64,000 nucleotides of DNA from positions 30,857-94,856 of the IMG/VR virus record IMGVR_UViG_3300027851_001140. The stretch is one strand, 5' to 3'. This DNA is from a virus. Below are positions 9,779 through 45,955 of this stretch, piece after piece (positions within the stretch are counted from its first letter, which is position 1; each line of letters opens with the position of its first letter). The translations under genes were made by a program, and so were the position numbers. The notes under the pieces are model-generated. The model was not told the DNA's origin and ran no database searches. It worked only from the letters and a program-made list of their open reading frames with translations.

Positions 9779-10056
9779 CTAAGCACCATAATCTTCATGT
9801 TAGGTTTGGTAGGAAGTACCGGAGCAGGTACTAAAGGTCGGATGAAAAGCCATGCGTTGTTCTGCATCACAAAATCAACAGCGCTGACTCGACTTTTTAT
9901 GATAGTAGAGAACCAAGAATGTATCTCTTCTACCTTCTGGTCGAAGAATTCAATATCGTAGCCATCATCTGGACGAGAGGGGTCGGAATGAGTATCGACC
10001 AAAAGAAGCACATGGTGTGTCTTAAGTGACTCCCATACTGGATTGTAGTCAGACAT
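9775..10056 (-). CDS. Hypothetical small protein
   Basis: A 93-residue protein whose start overlaps the end of sbcD by eight bases and whose stop overlaps the next start. It has a hydrophobic strand 'HHVLLLVDTHSD' followed by acidic residues and a C-terminal Pro-rich tail. This could be a small alpha/beta fold, but no family is recognised. Confidence 0.65.
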   Translation of the reverse strand: MSDYNPVWESLKTHHVLLLVDTHSDPSRPDDGYDIEFFDQKVEEIHSWFSTIIKSRVSAVDFVMQNNAWLFIRPLVPAPVLPTKPNMKIMVLR

Positions 10057-18704: not shown

Positions 18705-21632
18705 TCAAGTCTTTTGATCAACCAAGTCTACTACTTCGCACACTCCTCCTGCGCAGGCTAAGGTCTGACTGCCAGCAGTCATGTCGTACGTTTCGTAGTT
18801 TCTCAAAGAAGACCAATCTACATCCGTAGGAAGATCAGCAGATAGTTTTAGATAAGTGTCTTCGTCTATCTCCTCGTAAGGAGCTTGCCTATACACGTGG
18901 TCTGAATGTGGAAGAAAAGATATACCAGAAATTGAGTCTAGGTTGTTCCAAACCCAAGAGCCTACTTCGAGAAACTCAGAATCTTTGTAGTACACAGTAA
19001 TAGAAGGCTTGTGCTCGCACCAGTAATCTTGATAAATTTTCCACAACTTAAGCTGACTAAGAGCCGCTACGGCACTAGTAGTGACGGAGGTTTCTGGTGC
19101 ACGTATCGGAAAAGAGAACACCCATACGTTTGGGTTCATCAAGTCTTCTTCGCACGGAAATCCCCACATTTGCATCATGCTTGCCAGAGGGTCTTTCTTA
19201 TCGCACCTAACCCTTCTAACGTAGAACTTAGAAAACCTTGGATGAATTCCGCTCGCAGAATCTACCAACTGACTCACGGTGCCGCTGGGCTTTACACAAG
19301 TAATGGCTGTACTTTGGCTTATTTTTAGTTTTCCTGACCACTCCTTGTTAACGTCTATAGCCTTCTGACGCATTTGAGTAAGCCAAGAGGAAAGGTCGGA
19401 CGAATCAGGATCTCCAAGTATGGGGTGGTCCATTATGCCAGTGAGAGAAACGCCTAGAAGCCTTTCTTCTTCTGTATTCTTCTTCCAGATGGGTCTGAGA
19501 TACCTAAAGTTTGTAACAGTAGACTGCAGCGTCCCCAAAATAGTGGCGGCTTCCACCTTTAGAAGCAAGTCGGCTAACGTGTCAGAAGGTCTGACAACAA
19601 CCTCAGACAAGTTGCAAAACTGATAGGGCCTAAGGATAATTTCACTACAAGGATTTGTACCAAAATCGTAGTCTGAATCGCGGCGACCATTTTTGGCTAC
19701 TTGATTTTTACTGGCAGCCCGGCTGAATATGCCCCTCTCTCCCGACTTAGACTCGTATAAACTAAGCCATTCGTTTAGAAATACCTGGTAGTCAGGTCTT
19801 TCTGTGTAAGAAGCGGAATTATTGGCTAACTGCCTGTGGGGATATTCTACCCACCATTGGCCACTTTTAGCTAAACGCATTCTATCATCAGATAAGTTTG
19901 AGAGACTGATCAGAGCAGATCTTCGAACTCCTCCCACTACCACAATGTCAGCAATCTTACACACTAGATCATGACATTCTAAGGAAGAAAGCTTCCTTCC
20001 TGCTGCTTTCTTGAAAAGCGCTACGCAAAACTTAAATAAACTTTCAAGTGGAGCAGGTCCGGATGCGCGTCCTCCAAACGTCTTGAGGCGAGCCCCTGCA
20101 GGTCGTATCTTAGATAGGTCCCACCGAGGAATAGTACCTGAGTACAAAAGACTGATAAGTTGGCGAAGGGAAGAGGCCCACCCTATTTTAGAGTCTGCAA
20201 CAGATATAACAGTATCAACCTCATAAAAGGTGTCCGCCACATCGGGCAATTTACTGACATACTGTCTTTCTACAGAGAACCCTACGCCAGTGCCACACAT
20301 CAGTATGTACATCAGCTCGTCAAAAGATCTGACGTGATCTATGGGTAGGTAGGAACAGTTTCCTGTTACCAAGCCCATATCCAGTACAAAAGTATTTGTG
20401 TCAGGGACCTCGGCACAAAAAACCTCGGACAAGGTAGTTTCACCAGAGAATCCGGTGAATACATAGTGAGATTCCAGAGGCTTAAAGTTCTTTCTCTTAC
20501 GATCTATCAAAAAATCGTCTGAACACATAGAAGAACGACTGAAGGACAAGCACCATAATTTCTTTGTGCGCTTACCAAAGTTGGTGTCTTCTGGATATTC
20601 GTACTTAGATTGAACAACGTACCCTAAACGAGAGGCTACTCTATTAACCCAGGAAATCTCATTCGACCCAACGGCAAGACTTACTTGACTACTTGCACTT
20701 ACTGTACCGTCTGCTGCAAGCCAGCCGCGCATGAATCCGAGCAAGTACTGATCGGTCTCGTTCTCCGATGGGAGTTCTTTAAGTTCATGTGTCTTAGCGA
20801 AAGATCCATACATCATCACTACGGGGTCTCCTCCGTAAGAAGGAGGATAAGATACAGGGTACTCAGAGAACCAAGGAAGAGTGTCCTCTTTGTCAGAGCA
20901 AATACGTATGTGATACCCCTTAAGCCTCTCCTGAGCATACGTAGCAGTTCCATCCCCATAAATAAACCCGTGCTGTACGCCAAGCCTGTAGTCCAAGGAG
21001 TCCGGGTCAGGCTTTGGACCCGCTACGAACTTGATGCGATCTCCGGGCTGGAGCTTCTCTGTTGGGACTACAGTACCATCGACAAGAACCCAACGGTGAT
21101 TAAGAGTGCACCTAACTTCCTTACGAGTATTGGAGTTTAGTCGGAAGTTTGCCTGAACAACGGGTTGTTCGCCGTAAGACTTAAATGTGGCACGTACCCA
21201 GCGACCCTCTACGTTCAAAACTGTGCAGGAAGATCCAGAGAGAGTACTTATGGGCACAAGGCCGTGCTCATAAGTAAGAACAAGGGTGTCACCTGACACT
21301 GGGTTGTACCCAGCAACCGAATCCTTTGTGAGTGCCTTTCCTGCCGTCATTAGAGCGCGCATGGAAGGCATGGATTTCAGATTTATGATATAGTCTCTCA
21401 AAAATCTCCTAGTCTCTTCATATTCAGAGCTAGAAGTAGAGGAAGACAACAAAACTTCGTCAAAAAAACTAAGGTACCTGTCTACTGTCTCATCCCAAGT
21501 CTCTCGTCTCTCCTCTGCTTCTATCCATCGAGAATAGCGAGACAAATGAATGAACTGTGAGTACAGTGGAGTAGACGTGTTCTTATAAAAGGAATCATGG
21601 GTGCTTAAGAAAGAGGTACCAGGTTCAGTCAT
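18705..21632 (-). CDS. B12-dependent ribonucleotide reductase with intein
   Basis: A 975-residue precursor of a class II (adenosylcobalamin-dependent) ribonucleoside-triphosphate reductase. Extein motifs: 'CSYLPID', 'MCGTGVGFSVERQYV', the active-site 'TNPCSEI' (Cys662 thiyl-radical position, Glu664) followed eleven residues later by Cys673, and a C-terminal 'CAGGVC' pair (Cys960, Cys965) that normally re-reduces the active site. It makes deoxynucleotides for phage DNA synthesis and does not need oxygen. An intein occupies residues 111-425 and must splice out before Cys426, the probable redox-active cysteine. I chose ATG 21632 because of its AGGAAG site; an upstream in-frame ATG at 21671 has none. 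Confidence 0.93.
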   Translation of the reverse strand: MTEPGTSFLSTHDSFYKNTSTPLYSQFIHLSRYSRWIEAEERRETWDETVDRYLSFFDEVLLSSSTSSSEYEETRRFLRDYIINLKSMPSMRALMTAGKALTKDSVAGYNPVSGDTLVLTYEHGLVPISTLSGSSCTVLNVEGRWVRATFKSYGEQPVVQANFRLNSNTRKEVRCTLNHRWVLVDGTVVPTEKLQPGDRIKFVAGPKPDPDSLDYRLGVQHGFIYGDGTATYAQERLKGYHIRICSDKEDTLPWFSEYPVSYPPSYGGDPVVMMYGSFAKTHELKELPSENETDQYLLGFMRGWLAADGTVSASSQVSLAVGSNEISWVNRVASRLGYVVQSKYEYPEDTNFGKRTKKLWCLSFSRSSMCSDDFLIDRKRKNFKPLESHYVFTGFSGETTLSEVFCAEVPDTNTFVLDMGLVTGNCSYLPIDHVRSFDELMYILMCGTGVGFSVERQYVSKLPDVADTFYEVDTVISVADSKIGWASSLRQLISLLYSGTIPRWDLSKIRPAGARLKTFGGRASGPAPLESLFKFCVALFKKAAGRKLSSLECHDLVCKIADIVVVGGVRRSALISLSNLSDDRMRLAKSGQWWVEYPHRQLANNSASYTERPDYQVFLNEWLSLYESKSGERGIFSRAASKNQVAKNGRRDSDYDFGTNPCSEIILRPYQFCNLSEVVVRPSDTLADLLLKVEAATILGTLQSTVTNFRYLRPIWKKNTEEERLLGVSLTGIMDHPILGDPDSSDLSSWLTQMRQKAIDVNKEWSGKLKISQSTAITCVKPSGTVSQLVDSASGIHPRFSKFYVRRVRCDKKDPLASMMQMWGFPCEEDLMNPNVWVFSFPIRAPETSVTTSAVAALSQLKLWKIYQDYWCEHKPSITVYYKDSEFLEVGSWVWNNLDSISGISFLPHSDHVYRQAPYEEIDEDTYLKLSADLPTDVDWSSLRNYETYDMTAGSQTLACAGGVCEVVDLVDQKT
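20358..21302 (-). other. Class 3 intein with LAGLIDADG endonuclease, in the reductase
   Basis: A 315-residue intein (precursor residues 111-425, counting from ATG 21632). It starts with Pro in place of Cys or Ser ('PVSGDTLVL'). It has Thr176 and His179 of block B followed by Trp181, Cys406 at the block F position ('EVFCAEVPDT'), and Thr423 two residues before the terminal Asn425 ('GLVTGN'). These Trp, Cys and Thr positions are the triplet described for class 3 inteins, which splice without a residue-1 nucleophile. The penultimate residue is Gly, not His. Two LAGLIDADG-type segments ('GFIYGDGTA' near 222-230 and 'LLGFMRGWLAADG' near 297-309) indicate a homing endonuclease. The +1 residue is Cys. 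Confidence 0.88.
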
Positions 21633-21663
21633 GTTTCTTCCTATAAAGTGTACAGACACAAAA

Positions 21664-21692
21664 GGCAACATACCTAGTTAAAAGGTGTTGCC
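21664..21692 (-). terminator. Hairpin before the reductase gene (terminator or attenuator)
   Basis: GGCAACACC and GGTATGTTGCC (minus strand) pair with one bulged base around a nine-base loop, followed by TTTTG. It lies 60 bases after the stop of the 21752 gene and about 30 bases before the reductase ATG. It could end upstream transcription or act as a leader attenuator. No cobalamin-riboswitch core is visible in the short leader. Confidence 0.5.
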
Positions 21693-36688: not shown

Positions 36689-36904
36689 TCACGACAAAAT
36701 GACGAACTCTTCTGAGTCCTCATCGTCAGCGTCACACTCCTGATAACCGCTTTCTGGACCACCTTCGTCATAAAAACAGTGGTCAACATCTGCCAAGGAA
36801 GCCCTACAGTAGATTCCTGGATAGGAGGTAGGAACAAGCACAGGAAGGTCTCCGTGCTTCTCCTTCAGCCGGGTTAGTCTGTCAATCAAGTCACTTACAC
36901 GCAT
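36689..36904 (-). CDS. Hypothetical protein of a common small phage family
   Basis: A 71-residue protein beginning 'MRVSDLIDRLTRLKEKHGDLPVLV', a start seen in a widespread small phage/bacterial family of unknown function. The C-terminal half is acidic. It sits between the release factor and the MazG fusion, overlapping both by a few bases. Confidence 0.7.
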   Translation of the reverse strand: MRVSDLIDRLTRLKEKHGDLPVLVPTSYPGIYCRASLADVDHCFYDEGGPESGYQECDADDEDSEEFVILS

Positions 36905-37585
36905 CAGAAAAGCCCTTCCCAGATTCCTCGAAGGTAATCCTTGTACCGTATCTTGTTTCCGGACAAATGGTCGGTAACTATGCCGTCTTGCTGACGGACT
37001 GTACGTATCTTGTCGCCTCGCATACCGCTACCTACTTGATCTTTACGGGTCTTATCTCGTGCAGCGGTAGATTCCCTAAGACGATGCTCTTGAATCCTCG
37101 CAGCCAGAATCCTAAGAGCTAGCTCTCTATTTTGGTGTTGAGATCTCTCATTTTCTACTCGAACACGAATTCCAGTAGGAATATGAGTCATCTGAACGGC
37201 AGATTCAGTCTTGTTGCGGTGTTGTCCGCCTGCGCCTGAACCACGACAGGTGGACCATTCCACATCTTTCTCTGATATTGAAAAGGAAGAGTGTGAAGGT
37301 TCTTCAAGGACAGCAACGGTTACCGTTGAAGTCTGCACTCTACCGCGCTTTTCGGTCGGAGGTATGCGCTGAAACCTGTGTCCTCCAGATTCTTTAGAGA
37401 ATATCCTCTTAGCATCCTTGCCTTGCGCCTGAAATGCTACGAATCCGTCAGATTCTTCAATTAAAGCGTACTCAAAGACCCCTCCGGGTCATGAGGTTGA
37501 CGTAGATCTGAAGCTGGTCCTTGACCAAAAGTTTGGCGTCCTGTCCGCCTTCACCCGCTCTAATTTCCACTATGACGCTTTCCAT
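36904..37585 (-). CDS. Class-I-type peptide chain release factor made by +1 frameshifting
   Basis: Two frames join to a 226-residue protein. Frame one starts at ATG 37585 (GAGG upstream) and reads 37 codons, including 'VEIRAGEGGQDAKLLVKDQ', the conserved start of the RF1/RF2 central region. It ends in CTT TGA. Skipping one T continues in the +1 frame for 189 codons: 'FSKESGGHRFQRIPPTEKRGR', then the catalytic 'GSGAGGQHRNKTESAV' (GGQ at 119-121). Both halves match consecutive parts of release factors, so one gene is split exactly at the site. The stop-recognition position reads Pro-Pro-Thr, an RF1-like PxT. It lacks most of the N-terminal domain of cellular RF1/RF2 (about 360 residues). It would release peptides at stop codons or rescue ribosomes. 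Confidence 0.85.
37471..37486 (-). promoter_or_regulatory. Programmed +1 frameshift site, prfB-like
   Basis: Minus strand reads CGG AGG GGT CTT TGA G. The slippery CTT and in-frame TGA are preceded by a Shine-Dalgarno-like GGAGG three bases upstream of CTT. E. coli prfB has AGGGGG, three bases, CTT TGA C. The site joins the two halves of the release-factor gene. Confidence 0.85.
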
Positions 37586-37592
37586 GGTTTCC

Positions 37593-37934
37593 TCAATTCA
37601 TAAAACGAGACAGATTTACTGTCCCAGATATGTGTAAGTCAGGTAGAGTAAATAGGAGTACCCCAGGATCTCTCACCCCCAGATACGGGGAGGTCATTTC
37701 AAGTAAATGAGATCGGTACTCATCAGAAAGGGTATATCCCAGGGGGACTATAAGAGACCCCTTGTAGTCAAGGCTTCCAAGCCACTCTCCTACCTGATGA
37801 AGGTACTCGTCATCATCCACTGCCTCCGATTCCTTTACATACTTGAAGTAGGAGCAGGAGGGATGCCTCTCTCCATTTACTCCACCACAGCACAAACAAA
37901 TGAAATCAAAGTCTGACTCTTCCACCAGAGTCAC
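37593..37934 (-). CDS. Hypothetical small zinc-finger-like protein
   Basis: A 113-residue protein ending eight bases before the release-factor ATG. Cysteines and a histidine near the N-terminus ('FICLCCGGVNGERHPSC') could bind zinc. The rest is mixed alpha/beta. It probably shares a promoter with the release factor. Confidence 0.65.
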   Translation of the reverse strand: MTLVEESDFDFICLCCGGVNGERHPSCSYFKYVKESEAVDDDEYLHQVGEWLGSLDYKGSLIVPLGYTLSDEYRSHLLEMTSPYLGVRDPGVLLFTLPDLHISGTVNLSRFMN

Positions 37935-38466: not shown

Positions 38467-38814
38467 ATGTACCCTACACTGTCTTCACTTTTTAGAGAGG
38501 CCCCTCCGGTAGATGTGTACGATACCGAAGAGGGAAGGTTTGTCGAAATGGAAATGGCTGGGCTCAAGTCAGAGCATGTGCAAATCGAAGTAGAAGGAAG
38601 TACCCTTTTGGTTCGAACCGCCCCTCCAGCCACAAAAGAACGAGTCTACCTACACAGAGAACGGCTGACTCCAGATTATTCCGACAGGAGAATAAAGCTT
38701 CCTGCATCCGTAGACACTGAAAAGATCGAAGCCACCATGGCGGATGGTCTTTTAACCATTCGTCTTCCGCTACGAAGCAAGCCTTCTCCCATACCTATCA
38801 GAGTAAACGGATGA
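38467..38814 (+). CDS. Small heat shock protein, HSP20 family
   Basis: A 115-residue alpha-crystallin-domain chaperone. Residues 14-100 cover the domain: 'PPVDVYDTEEGRFVEMEMAG', 'VQIEVEGSTLLVR', the 'RERLTPDYSDRRIKLPASVD' segment and 'ATMADGLLTIRLPL', where the family's 'A.l.nGvL.i.lP' ending is clear. A C-terminal 'IPIRV' serves as the usual IxI/V anchor. It would hold unfolded proteins in soluble oligomers, perhaps during capsid assembly. It is a single-gene unit with its own promoter and terminator, on the opposite strand from both neighbours. Confidence 0.93.
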   Translation: MYPTLSSLFREAPPVDVYDTEEGRFVEMEMAGLKSEHVQIEVEGSTLLVRTAPPATKERVYLHRERLTPDYSDRRIKLPASVDTEKIEATMADGLLTIRLPLRSKPSPIPIRVNG

Positions 38815-42304: not shown

Positions 42305-42627
42305 ACCCTGTACTGCAGCAAAGGCTCATACGTGTAGCTAGAATAGTAGACCGCGCCAAAAGATGGGAACGTCTTGCTTTTTTGGATGAGAAAGAAGCTG
42401 ATCGTTTCTTGCTTGAGTATGAGCTTAGAAACCCAGAAGAGGAAGAGGACAAGGAGGCGGGTATGGATGACGGTTCATACCCTGCAGGTCCTCGTTCCGA
42501 CAAGAATAAGTCTAGATACAAATTAGAACCGGGGCACGGTCAAGACTTATCTTCTCTTCTTCGCAGTACTGCGTCCACAAAAGTCTTGCATAGCTTACGT
42601 GCTCTAATAAAAAAGCACGATGAGTGA
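42301..42627 (+). CDS. Hypothetical protein between terminase genes
   Basis: A 108-residue charged protein overlapping both terminase genes by a few bases (ATGA on the left). It is helical at the N-terminus (1-45), with an acidic run ('EEEEDKEAG') then a polar part. Not recognised. Confidence 0.65.
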   Translation: MNPVLQQRLIRVARIVDRAKRWERLAFLDEKEADRFLLEYELRNPEEEEDKEAGMDDGSYPAGPRSDKNKSRYKLEPGHGQDLSSLLRSTASTKVLHSLRALIKKHDE

Positions 42628-45600
42628 TAGAAGATCCAAAGTAGAAGAGGAAAACGCTCACCTATTTGATCTAAAGGGTTTAGTAGACCAGGTCATAGCT
42701 ACAGGTCTAGACCCCTCTGTATTCGATGTAGACCTAGAGGTTACCTTTGCCAACAACGTCATAGACTTTGCCGTAGGGCCAGAGTACATGAATATGACGT
42801 CTCTTTGGTCGAAGCAAGCAGAACAGGCAGTACGTCTATTTTCTGATTACTGCCCAGAGTGCAGCGATCCTGATTTCCTAGAAGACGTTCCTGTAGATGC
42901 CAGCATAGGAACCTTCAGATCCAAGGTGGTTCTCCTCAACCACGGAATATGCCCAGAGTGTAATAAAAACAGGAGAGAGTTGTTCGACAAACTCCCCTGG
43001 GAGCTTGTGTCATGTTTGGGTCAGCGTTCCGGAAAAACAGCTCTTACAGGTGGAGTAATCACCCCATATTATTTGCATCGCTTTCTTCAGTATAGAAATC
43101 CTGCAAGATTCTATGGACTAATGGCTAATTCATTTTTCGAAGTCACATTCGTAGCCGTTACAGCAGGACAGGTTAAAAGGGGTTTGTGGACTGCCTTTAA
43201 AGAGGCCATTAGCCAAAGTCCGTGGTTCACCGATTATTCCCTCAAGCTCCGCCAAGTAGAAAAAGAGAAAGGATTTGAGAGAGGAACCCTCTTCAAATCC
43301 ATGGATAGCTACATCTGGTTTGGAAACAAGCATGTTGGGTGCAGCTACGCTGCAGCCGACATGAAAAGCTTGAGAGGTTCTACTCGAATCTTTTGTGTCA
43401 CAGGAGACACTATCATCGCTACAGACCACGGGCTGATTCAAGCCAAAGATGTCAAGAACTCTCCAGGTATCAAATTCCTAACTAAGAGTGGCGAGTATAA
43501 GGCAGTTACAGCTTCCTTTGAGAGAGAAGCTGACGTTCTTCATATTCGTACTAACTGCGGGTACGAACTTTCTGGGAGCCATGACCACCCCGTGCTGGTG
43601 GCCAACAAGGATTCATCTTTGGTGTACAAGACCCTAGGAACTATGAACATTGGAGATGTAGTAGTATTGTCTAGGGCAAAGTCAGAGACACTCCACAGAG
43701 CGCGACTCCCAGAGGTTCCTAAGAATGGTCCCAGAGGCCACAACAACAGGAAATACATACCTCCAAAGGAGATGACTCCAGACCTTGCCTACCTTCTTGG
43801 GATTTTGGCTGCAGAGGGGTACCTTTCCAAAAGGGTAATTAGATGGCATACGTCGGACAAGGAGATACTTGACAAATCGGTGTCAGCCTTTGAGTCTGTA
43901 TTTGGGTCATCTCCTAAAATAAAGCCACATGGATCTCTTAAGGAAGGGTGGAGTCCTGGGTGGTACATAGAGGCTCAAAGTCCAATATTACACAAATTCC
44001 TATGTGAGGTAGGTCTAAGCGGAAAATCTGACACCAAGACTGTTCCTTGGTCCATACTCCAAAGTGATTCCTCCTGCACCTCTCAGTTTTTAGCTGGGTA
44101 TTTTGACGGTGACTCAAATGTGGAGTTCTATGCAGACTCCCCAAAAAAGTCCAAGGCCATAACGGTACACAGCAAGAGTGAGGATCTCCTAAAGAAGGTA
44201 CAGATACTACTTCTCAGCAAGGGTATAGTGTCACACAGGTCTTACTACTCAAGAAATACCAAGGGTAAACTAAGGAAGTACCACAAACTTCAGATATTTG
44301 GTAAAAACTATGCCGTGTTCCACAAGTCTGTCCGTTTGATAGACAGGAAACGTGGTATCTCCGTTCAAGAGGAATATGAAGATACAGACAAGTTGTATGT
44401 GGACCTGTCGATTCTTCGTACTGATTCTGTGAACACAAACTACGCACTATTCTACAAAAGAAATACACAGAACTGTGTGTACGCAACCACCCTCAGAGAC
44501 CACTTAGGTACCCTAAAGGAACAACTAGACCCTGGCATTTATGACAATTTGTCAAACATGCTTAGTGAAGATCTTTTTTTCGACCCTATACAAGAGATAG
44601 CATCCGAGCCGATACAGGCCGTGTTCGACTGGACTGTTGAACAGGAACACAACTTTGTTGGCAACGGAATAGTGCAGCACAACTGTGGAATTGACGAGTT
44701 GGGGTGGTTTAATGCTACCAAGGAGGCAGTTCGTGCAAATGCAGATGAGACTTATGCCGCCTTGTCTAACTCTTTGCGCACCGTGCGCTCTGCTAGTGAT
44801 AGACTGTGGAAACAGGGGGAATACCAGACCATGCCTGGTATTATGGCAAACATTTCCTCCCCAAGTTCTCAGTATGATAAAATGATGGCTCTCCTAAAAG
44901 AAGGCACCAGAGACAAGAGAAAGGTCTGCTTTCATCTGTCTTCATGGGAAGCCAGTCCGCTTATCACGCGAGATTCACTGGAGACCGAAGAACAGAACAA
45001 CCCTGTGGTTTTTTGGAGAGACTTCGGCGCAGTACCGCCCATAGCCGATTCTCCATTTATCGAGTCTACTGCCTCTATTTATGAGATGCGAACGAACAAC
45101 AAGCCTCTCGCTTCGTGGAAGCCCAAGTTCGTCAAAGATAAAGTAGACCCTACTAAAAACAGGTACATAACTGCTGAGTTACTAGGGAGTTTCAGTGACA
45201 ATCGTGTACGCATGATTCCTCGCGTCATCACTGTAGACTGTGGAGAAACTCAAAACAGCTTTGCTATAGGAGTGTATCACCTAGAACCTGCGTCAGGAGA
45301 AGAGGGAAACAGGTTTAATATTGTTACTGACGTCATCATAGAAGCAAAGCCAGAGAAGATAGCAGAAACAGGAGAGATTATACCAGTACACTTTCCTTCC
45401 ATGTTTCAAATAGTGAAGACGTTGTGCGATAAAAACAAGGGACTTCACATAAAAGCTGCTCTGTACGACAGGTGGCAGTCCACGGGTCAGATACAAGAGC
45501 TGAGGGAAATGAAGATAAGGGCAGAAAAGTACACTCCAAAGGATGCTGATTTTAAGTTATTGCGCAGCCTAGTATATAGCGGAAACTTTAAAACTCCGAA

Positions 45601-45955
45601 GTGGGAGCATAATGAACTTACGGATTTAGACATAACTGACGTAAATCAGATTAGACTAGCTCCGTATACTCACATGGCGGTTCAATTCGCTACAGTTAGG
45701 GAAGTAGGAATGAAAGTCATAAAACCAGAGGTTGGTGACGATGACTTATTTCGCACTTCTGTTTTGGCTGCAGCCTACATGACTGAAAACATGAAGGACT
45801 TTTTGACCAAGGTAGCTGTGGGACAAAGCAGTACTTCCGTCTCTGTGGGTTCATTAGCTCTTAAATCTTCTGTATCTAATACGTACAGAGGGTCAAGGTC
45901 TAGGGCCACTATAGGCTCTGTCAAATCAAAAACCTCTTACTATGGAAGGCGATAG
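42620..45955 (+). CDS. Terminase large subunit with intein
   Basis: A 1111-residue precursor; the spliced protein would be 681 residues. N-terminal ATPase: Walker A-type 'GQRSGKT' at 134-140; Walker B 'CGIDELGWF' directly after the intein. C-terminal RNase H-like nuclease: 'ITVDCGETQNSFAIGVY', 'LYDRWQS' and 'GDDDLFRTSVLAA' supply the acidic residues. Two CxxC pairs ('YCPEC' and 'GICPEC', residues 78-114) suggest a zinc ribbon before the ATPase. It cuts and pumps DNA into the prohead through the portal encoded downstream. The intein sits inside the Walker B strand, so the unspliced protein cannot work. Confidence 0.95.
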   Translation: MSDRRSKVEEENAHLFDLKGLVDQVIATGLDPSVFDVDLEVTFANNVIDFAVGPEYMNMTSLWSKQAEQAVRLFSDYCPECSDPDFLEDVPVDASIGTFRSKVVLLNHGICPECNKNRRELFDKLPWELVSCLGQRSGKTALTGGVITPYYLHRFLQYRNPARFYGLMANSFFEVTFVAVTAGQVKRGLWTAFKEAISQSPWFTDYSLKLRQVEKEKGFERGTLFKSMDSYIWFGNKHVGCSYAAADMKSLRGSTRIFCVTGDTIIATDHGLIQAKDVKNSPGIKFLTKSGEYKAVTASFEREADVLHIRTNCGYELSGSHDHPVLVANKDSSLVYKTLGTMNIGDVVVLSRAKSETLHRARLPEVPKNGPRGHNNRKYIPPKEMTPDLAYLLGILAAEGYLSKRVIRWHTSDKEILDKSVSAFESVFGSSPKIKPHGSLKEGWSPGWYIEAQSPILHKFLCEVGLSGKSDTKTVPWSILQSDSSCTSQFLAGYFDGDSNVEFYADSPKKSKAITVHSKSEDLLKKVQILLLSKGIVSHRSYYSRNTKGKLRKYHKLQIFGKNYAVFHKSVRLIDRKRGISVQEEYEDTDKLYVDLSILRTDSVNTNYALFYKRNTQNCVYATTLRDHLGTLKEQLDPGIYDNLSNMLSEDLFFDPIQEIASEPIQAVFDWTVEQEHNFVGNGIVQHNCGIDELGWFNATKEAVRANADETYAALSNSLRTVRSASDRLWKQGEYQTMPGIMANISSPSSQYDKMMALLKEGTRDKRKVCFHLSSWEASPLITRDSLETEEQNNPVVFWRDFGAVPPIADSPFIESTASIYEMRTNNKPLASWKPKFVKDKVDPTKNRYITAELLGSFSDNRVRMIPRVITVDCGETQNSFAIGVYHLEPASGEEGNRFNIVTDVIIEAKPEKIAETGEIIPVHFPSMFQIVKTLCDKNKGLHIKAALYDRWQSTGQIQELREMKIRAEKYTPKDADFKLLRSLVYSGNFKTPKWEHNELTDLDITDVNQIRLAPYTHMAVQFATVREVGMKVIKPEVGDDDLFRTSVLAAAYMTENMKDFLTKVAVGQSSTSVSVGSLALKSSVSNTYRGSRSRATIGSVKSKTSYYGRR
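43394..44683 (+). other. Class 1 intein with LAGLIDADG endonuclease, in the terminase
   Basis: A 430-residue intein, precursor residues 259-688. It begins 'CVTGDTIIATDHG' (Cys1), has a block B 'GSHDHPVLV', two LAGLIDADG-type motifs ('LLGILAAEGYLS' near 392-403 and 'FLAGYFDGDSN' near 490-500), block F 'VFDWTVEQEHNFVGN', and ends 'GIVQHN' before Cys689. All standard class 1 splice residues are present. Confidence 0.93.

Follow-up and report, generated by a model that had tools for sequence, protein, structure and literature searches.

Conserved early interruptions, probably recoded, in a lineage of phage RF1-type release-factor genes: a candidate gauge of host termination

We used sequence inspection, profile scans and comparison with relatives to examine an interrupted release-factor gene in the window, a 64-kb stretch of a 94,856-base virus contig. 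The analysis suggests, with a probability that we put at roughly 0.75, that the interruption is an obligatory recoding gate: should termination in the host slow down, it would supply a release factor of the phage's own. Ribosomes reaching CUU-UGA would normally terminate and give a 37-residue peptide; when release is slow, an internal GGAGG and the slippery CUU would let the P-site tRNA shift +1 onto UUU, giving the whole factor. The less release-factor activity is left in the infected cell, the more of the full factor would be made. In relatives, an in-frame UGA, mostly replacing a conserved Trp codon, would be read through with the same outcome. Members gated by UGA would respond to host RF2 or to general termination failure, and not to themselves, if UGA is a stop that their product does not recognise; if the product does read it, the loop would be closed as in prfB.

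At the level of sequence, the arrangement itself, its conservation, the selection on both halves of the gene and the exchange of mechanism with the gate kept are plain. We infer that the stop is indeed recoded, to an extent that depends on how much release factor is available, and that UAA and UAG are the codons at which the product acts. We give about even odds to the wider proposal that what this large phage lineage conserves is the presence of an interrupting stop, whereas the way of decoding it (+1 or readthrough; UGA, UAG or UAA) can be exchanged, that these are the first bacterial-type release-factor genes under readthrough control, and that the gate acts as an open-loop gauge of host RF2 which releases a phage substitute.

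Layout of the gene and signals at the gate

The release-factor gene and its proposed recoding site lie on the minus strand of the window, with the following features:

37591..37594, minus strand: likely ribosome-binding site GAGG, 5 nt before the ATG at 37585 (sequence)
37472..37585, minus strand: first reading frame, from ATG 37585, 37 codons plus TGA (sequence)
37481..37485, minus strand: internal Shine-Dalgarno (SD)-like GGAGG, 3 nt before CTT (sequence; SD enrichment in relatives)
37475..37477, minus strand: slippery CTT codon (CTT in 58 of 58 scored +1 members)
37472..37474, minus strand: gate stop TGA, next base G (sequence; the +4 base is never T in 227 family events)
36904..37473, minus strand: second reading frame (+1), from GAG 37473, 189 codons plus stop (sequence, RF1 homology)
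37354..37362, minus strand: codons of the Pro-Pro-Thr stop-recognition tripeptide (PxT, RF1-like), residues Pro75-Pro76-Thr77
37222..37230, minus strand: codons of the catalytic GGQ motif, residues 119-121, invariant in the family alignment

The first frame encodes the product MESVIVEIRAGEGGQDAKLLVKDQLQIYVNLMTRRGL, which is the start of domain 2 with its EIRAGEGG motif, and is closed at codon 38 by the TGA at 37474-37472. The second frame covers the rest of domain 2 and then domains 4 and 3, as judged by homology to RF1. A GGT at 37480-37478 lies between the GGAGG and the CTT. Thus all the elements named in the earlier note, which had described two frames of one RF1/RF2-like protein meeting at CTT TGA with GGAGG three bases upstream, are present. 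The site shares with prfB-type +1 sites the CUU directly before the stop, a downstream frame in +1 and an SD-like element 3 nt before CUU, but its product carries PPT and best matches RF1, not RF2 with its SPF motif. The position at codon 38 is as first reported, but its contrast with codon 26 of prfB does not compare like with like, because the window gene lacks the whole of domain 1. The pattern GGAGGNNNCTTTGA occurs once in the 64-kb window against 0.05 expected, and a chance origin of the signal is excluded mainly because, when related phages were searched for the CTT-TGA break, dozens of them proved to carry this signal, also at the homologous codon.

The signals around the gate are strongly biased across the family. 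CTT stands before the stop at every scored +1 site, yet it accounts for just 16% of Leu codons (61 of 383) across these genes. An SD core of five bases, GGAGG or GGGGG, is present 1-6 nt before CTT in 37 of 59 +1 members, compared to 1.4% of random positions, while 9 of the 59 have no recognisable core. Of 34 Arg codons at the centre of the signal, 32 are AGG (117 of 833 elsewhere). A T following the stop codon favours termination; none of the 227 stop events in the family is followed by T, as against 30% of ordinary stops in the same loci. The commonest readthrough site is GGN-UGA, at a position occupied by Trp in 65 of 79 bacterial RF1, and the commonest +1 site lies one codon downstream of it. 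The gate is mostly UGA, with UAG and UAA in 12 of 58 scored +1 members. A matching of the gate stop to the recognition loop was considered and rejected, as there is no general match and PxT is found across UGA, UAG and UAA gates. SPT or SPL loops were seen in 4 of 13 UAG/UAA-gated genes versus 2 of about 190, numbers that are small and include the sister loci L064 and L073.

Interruption among the relatives and its evolution

In a first IMG/VR scan, 18 full-length relatives were obtained, ten with a +1 break, six with an in-frame stop and two apparently open. Scans with profiles seeded from all three kinds of member (frameshift, readthrough, uninterrupted), together with six huge-phage records, gave a survey set of at least 236 loci differing in DNA (best 80 matches per scan), nearly all from uncultured phage contigs and with one bacterial MAG contig (L273); twelve loci fell outside the reach of the motif-based classifier, and, many loci being close kin, the counts below are of sequences and not of events. 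The earlier note had held that related phages carrying the gene unbroken would point to a mutation or an error. Among the matches listed, 231 of 236 non-redundant relatives are interrupted early, and only L041, L050, L054, L067 and L156 are uninterrupted, scattered on the tree. Since these five members live without it, the gate is not essential everywhere.

About 72 of the 236 listed relatives have a +1 site with CTT before the stop, 59 of them between the GxGG motif and GGQ and 13 upstream of the motif; nearly all of these 13 lack their own in-frame ATG. In-frame stops account for 158 of the 236, of which 157 lie between the GxGG motif and GGQ and one (L344) is a UGA at codon 5; the stop is usually a UGA at a Trp codon conserved in bacterial RF1. 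The one other interrupted locus, L095, was classed separately for its additional frame break. The prfB-style framing of the earlier note therefore holds for the +1 site, which is real, but not for the family, in which most relatives use an in-frame stop and what the members share is that an early stop is recoded. When the same classifier was applied to the best 80 bacterial-genome matches, 79 were uninterrupted, 77 of those with domain 1. The one exception is L273, a 25-kb MAG contig with CTT-TGA that groups with the phage members and is probably phage DNA.

Some members stand apart in detail. L006, of RF1 type, is interrupted early by an in-frame UAG. In the huge-phage locus L028, upstream of position 1484, two successive +1 shifts, at CTT-TAA and then CTT-TGA, appear to be needed before domain 2. 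L025:1501-2155, from huge phage LR745208, has GGQ and a CTT-TGA site without a PxT loop, so its stop recognition should differ.

Pooled dN/dS was 0.12 before the stop, that is, in the segment corresponding to the first frame of the window gene, compared to 1.2-1.3 in a wrong-frame control. In the 40 codons after the stop, which correspond to the second frame, it was 0.11 in the +1 group (7 pairs) and 0.16 in the readthrough group (88 pairs). Because dN/dS is low on either side of the stop, both parts are, on sequence evidence, very probably translated and needed. A tree built solely from columns after the recoding region, by a quick search that left many weak branches, places the phage factors in one clade apart from ten bacterial RF1 (SH-aLRT 99), and recoding states change on it at least 24 times with the interruption retained. 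The +1 members L013 and L273 are nested in a readthrough clade, and the readthrough members L035 (CTA-TGA) and L043 (CTC-TGA) in the +1 group. The two mechanisms are thus seen replacing each other at nearly the same codon, and the tree indicates that the gate is retained while the mechanism switches, site and mechanism having changed many times. The prfB-style +1 site is conserved here and, in line with the original suggestion, was acquired separately from that of prfB.

An RF1-type product without domain 1 and its known counterparts

The joined product of 226 aa is similar to RF1 along its whole length in comparisons with NCBIfam profiles (prfA 3e-64, prfB 3.5e-42, prfH 3.3e-27), which settles the alignment to RF1, RF2 and PrfH proposed earlier in favor of RF1; the tripeptide first read as Pro-Pro-Thr and RF1-like is indeed such. 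The prfA match spans positions 105 to 317 of the model and reaches 217 bits versus a cut-off of 400, with domain 1 absent. The product thus has the GGQ and PxT of RF1 and scores below a whole-protein cut-off that includes domain 1. PrfH identity was rejected at 95 bits versus a cut-off of 166.65, and a profile scan of the ten genes neighboring the window release factor found no RtcB. The fold was predicted for the readthrough relative L035 as a stand-in for the window protein (mean pLDDT 93), and the model matches ribosome-bound RF1 with a TM of 0.93 and an E of 9e-24, the match to RF2 being poorer. By alignment, the +1 site falls at the turn joining the first helix of domain 2 to the next strand. 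Since nearly all family members have a PPT or PPN recognition loop, independent of the gate stop, the phage factor is expected to read UAA/UAG, by analogy with RF1.

Bacterial prfB is the textbook example of a release factor controlled by recoding, and amoeba viruses provide one parallel; the phage family would be a further, variant case of this known kind. For the +1 site, prfB is the model, sharing with the window gene CUU-UGA, the SD-like element 3 nt upstream and an early +1 shift in a release-factor gene (PMC5009743, PMC3711429). In contrast to prfB, the phage product is RF1-type without domain 1, the site is in domain 2, the family also has UAG and UAA gates, and most relatives use readthrough. 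The class-I release factor of Mimivirus/Megavirus (R726/mg280), described by Jeudy et al. (PMC3521657) and cited by Atkins et al. (PMC5009743), is likewise encoded by a virus, and its gene combines readthrough at UGA-C with a +1 shift at UAG/UAA. It is however of the eukaryotic/archaeal type, from amoeba viruses and not related in sequence type, and there one gene structure has both events, whereas phage members have one or the other. Cellular RF1 (prfA) shares PxT, GGQ and the fold of domains 2-4 but has domain 1, and prfA genes are uninterrupted. PrfH of the RtcB2-PrfH rescue pair is also a short factor without domain 1 (PMC1586002), but the phage factor differs from it in retaining PxT, in its sub-threshold PrfH score and in having no RtcB among its ten neighbors.

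Members of the family occur in six huge-phage records, and Al-Shayeb et al. note release factors 1 and 2 in huge phages without mention of frameshifting (PMC7162821). According to Atkins et al. (PMC5009743), no RF2 genes are known in which an early in-frame UGA is read through, nor RF1 genes with the equivalent at UAG; the family offers many candidates for early-stop readthrough in bacterial-type release factors, and adds RF1-type genes whose +1 sites use any of the three stops, UGA, UAG or UAA. The earlier note knew of no described phage case, and in the literature that could be searched, with preprints and most subscription papers outside its reach, we likewise found no phage release factor with recoding. 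As gene callers split these genes in two, phage release factors are probably undercounted.

Competing readings and the genomic setting

The window phage has genes for a terminase, portal, major head protein, UvsX-like recombinase, primase and ribonucleotide reductase, from which we take it to be a tailed phage. Among its 65 called genes, 45 end in TGA, 15 in TAA and 5 in TAG, so the phage depends heavily on host RF2, and whether the product can read UGA becomes a sharper question. We regard it as close to a coin toss that the loop is open, gauging host RF2 or termination in general as the earlier note proposed, and favor this over closed self-regulation because an RF1-like product is paired with a gate that is mostly UGA. 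Against the gate reading itself count the +1 members with no SD core, the five ungated members, the heavy use of UGA stops by the window phage, and the same pairing of RF1-type product and UGA gate, which is hardly what one would design for feedback.

In closed self-regulation as in prfB, the phage factor would read the gate stop and its accumulation would shut off recoding. This is possible but doubtful. The same signal is self-regulatory in prfB (PMC5009743), the UAG/UAA gates are cognate to an RF1-type factor, and a UGA-reading factor would better serve a phage with so many UGA-ending genes. At UGA gates, however, the loop would require a PxT factor more promiscuous than cellular RF1, and PxT is found in nearly all members with no consistent difference among UGA-, UAG- and UAA-gated genes.

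Alternatively, the gate may merely keep the factor scarce whatever the conditions, for example if large amounts of a factor lacking domain 1 do harm. Output would be lowered by either mechanism, and some members (L028, L026, L029) have two stops in series. But a weak start codon or ribosome-binding site would be a simpler route to the same end, and selection has retained stop-dependent sites with termination-sensitive contexts, which makes such fixed damping improbable.

A switch of genetic code, with UGA read as Trp by a suppressor tRNA late in infection and the factor made only then, appears still less probable. Its attraction is that most readthrough members have UGA at a Trp position, that there are known code 4 phages which carry RF1 together with a suppressor tRNA (PMC10746230), and that 3 of 11 phage tRNA-Trp genes lack the top anticodon-stem pair, a change reported to allow reading of UGA (PMC13092985). 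Against it, no tRNA with a UCA anticodon was seen in 60 related loci, 152 other Trp codons after GGQ in family genes are TGG, and the window genes are open under code 11, mostly ending in UGA; the +1 sites and the UAG/UAA gates would also be left unexplained. A comparison of coding density between codes is uninformative here, as removing any stop raises coverage.

That the second frame yields a separate, internally started protein is very unlikely: it does contain start codons, e.g., GTG 37338, but the first of them in the window lies about 45 codons past the stop, and the codons in between are conserved as RF1 domain 2 under purifying selection. Sequencing error or a pseudogene is the least likely explanation. 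In its favor, the window is a single metagenomic contig and one relative (L095) has an extra frame break relative to its near-copy L064. For the family it is excluded by the same site in dozens of contigs from different samples, the purifying selection on both halves and the conserved synonymous codon choice at the signal.

Many readthrough members lie within tRNA arrays, which hold as many as 36 tRNAs in 12.7 kb and in some cases tmRNA, a setting that fits a kit for keeping translation going. The family as a whole suggests that phages, many of them large and tRNA-rich, keep watch on termination in the cells they infect or insure themselves against its failure. The 64-kb window itself yielded no tRNA genes and no Rfam matches. 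A Pfam scan of the ten genes around the locus named one, HSP20, and this small heat-shock protein gene is near the release factor (window 38467-38814). The ribonucleotide reductase (18705-21671) and large terminase (42620-45955) genes of the window each have an endonuclease-like stretch inside the open frame, possibly an intein.

In nine loci (L118, L122, L128, L143, L173, L123, L124, L172 and L177), the release factor lies inside 22 to 36 tRNA genes over 9-13 kb, and tmRNA genes are found in L174, L188 and L248. The tRNA-Trp(CCA) genes with an unpaired top anticodon-stem pair are located at L124:5910-5982, L128:4509-4584 and L164:5718-5791. In L188, a tRNA with a predicted CUA anticodon (9851-9926, called tRNA-Pyl) is encoded near a UGA-gated release factor and tmRNA.
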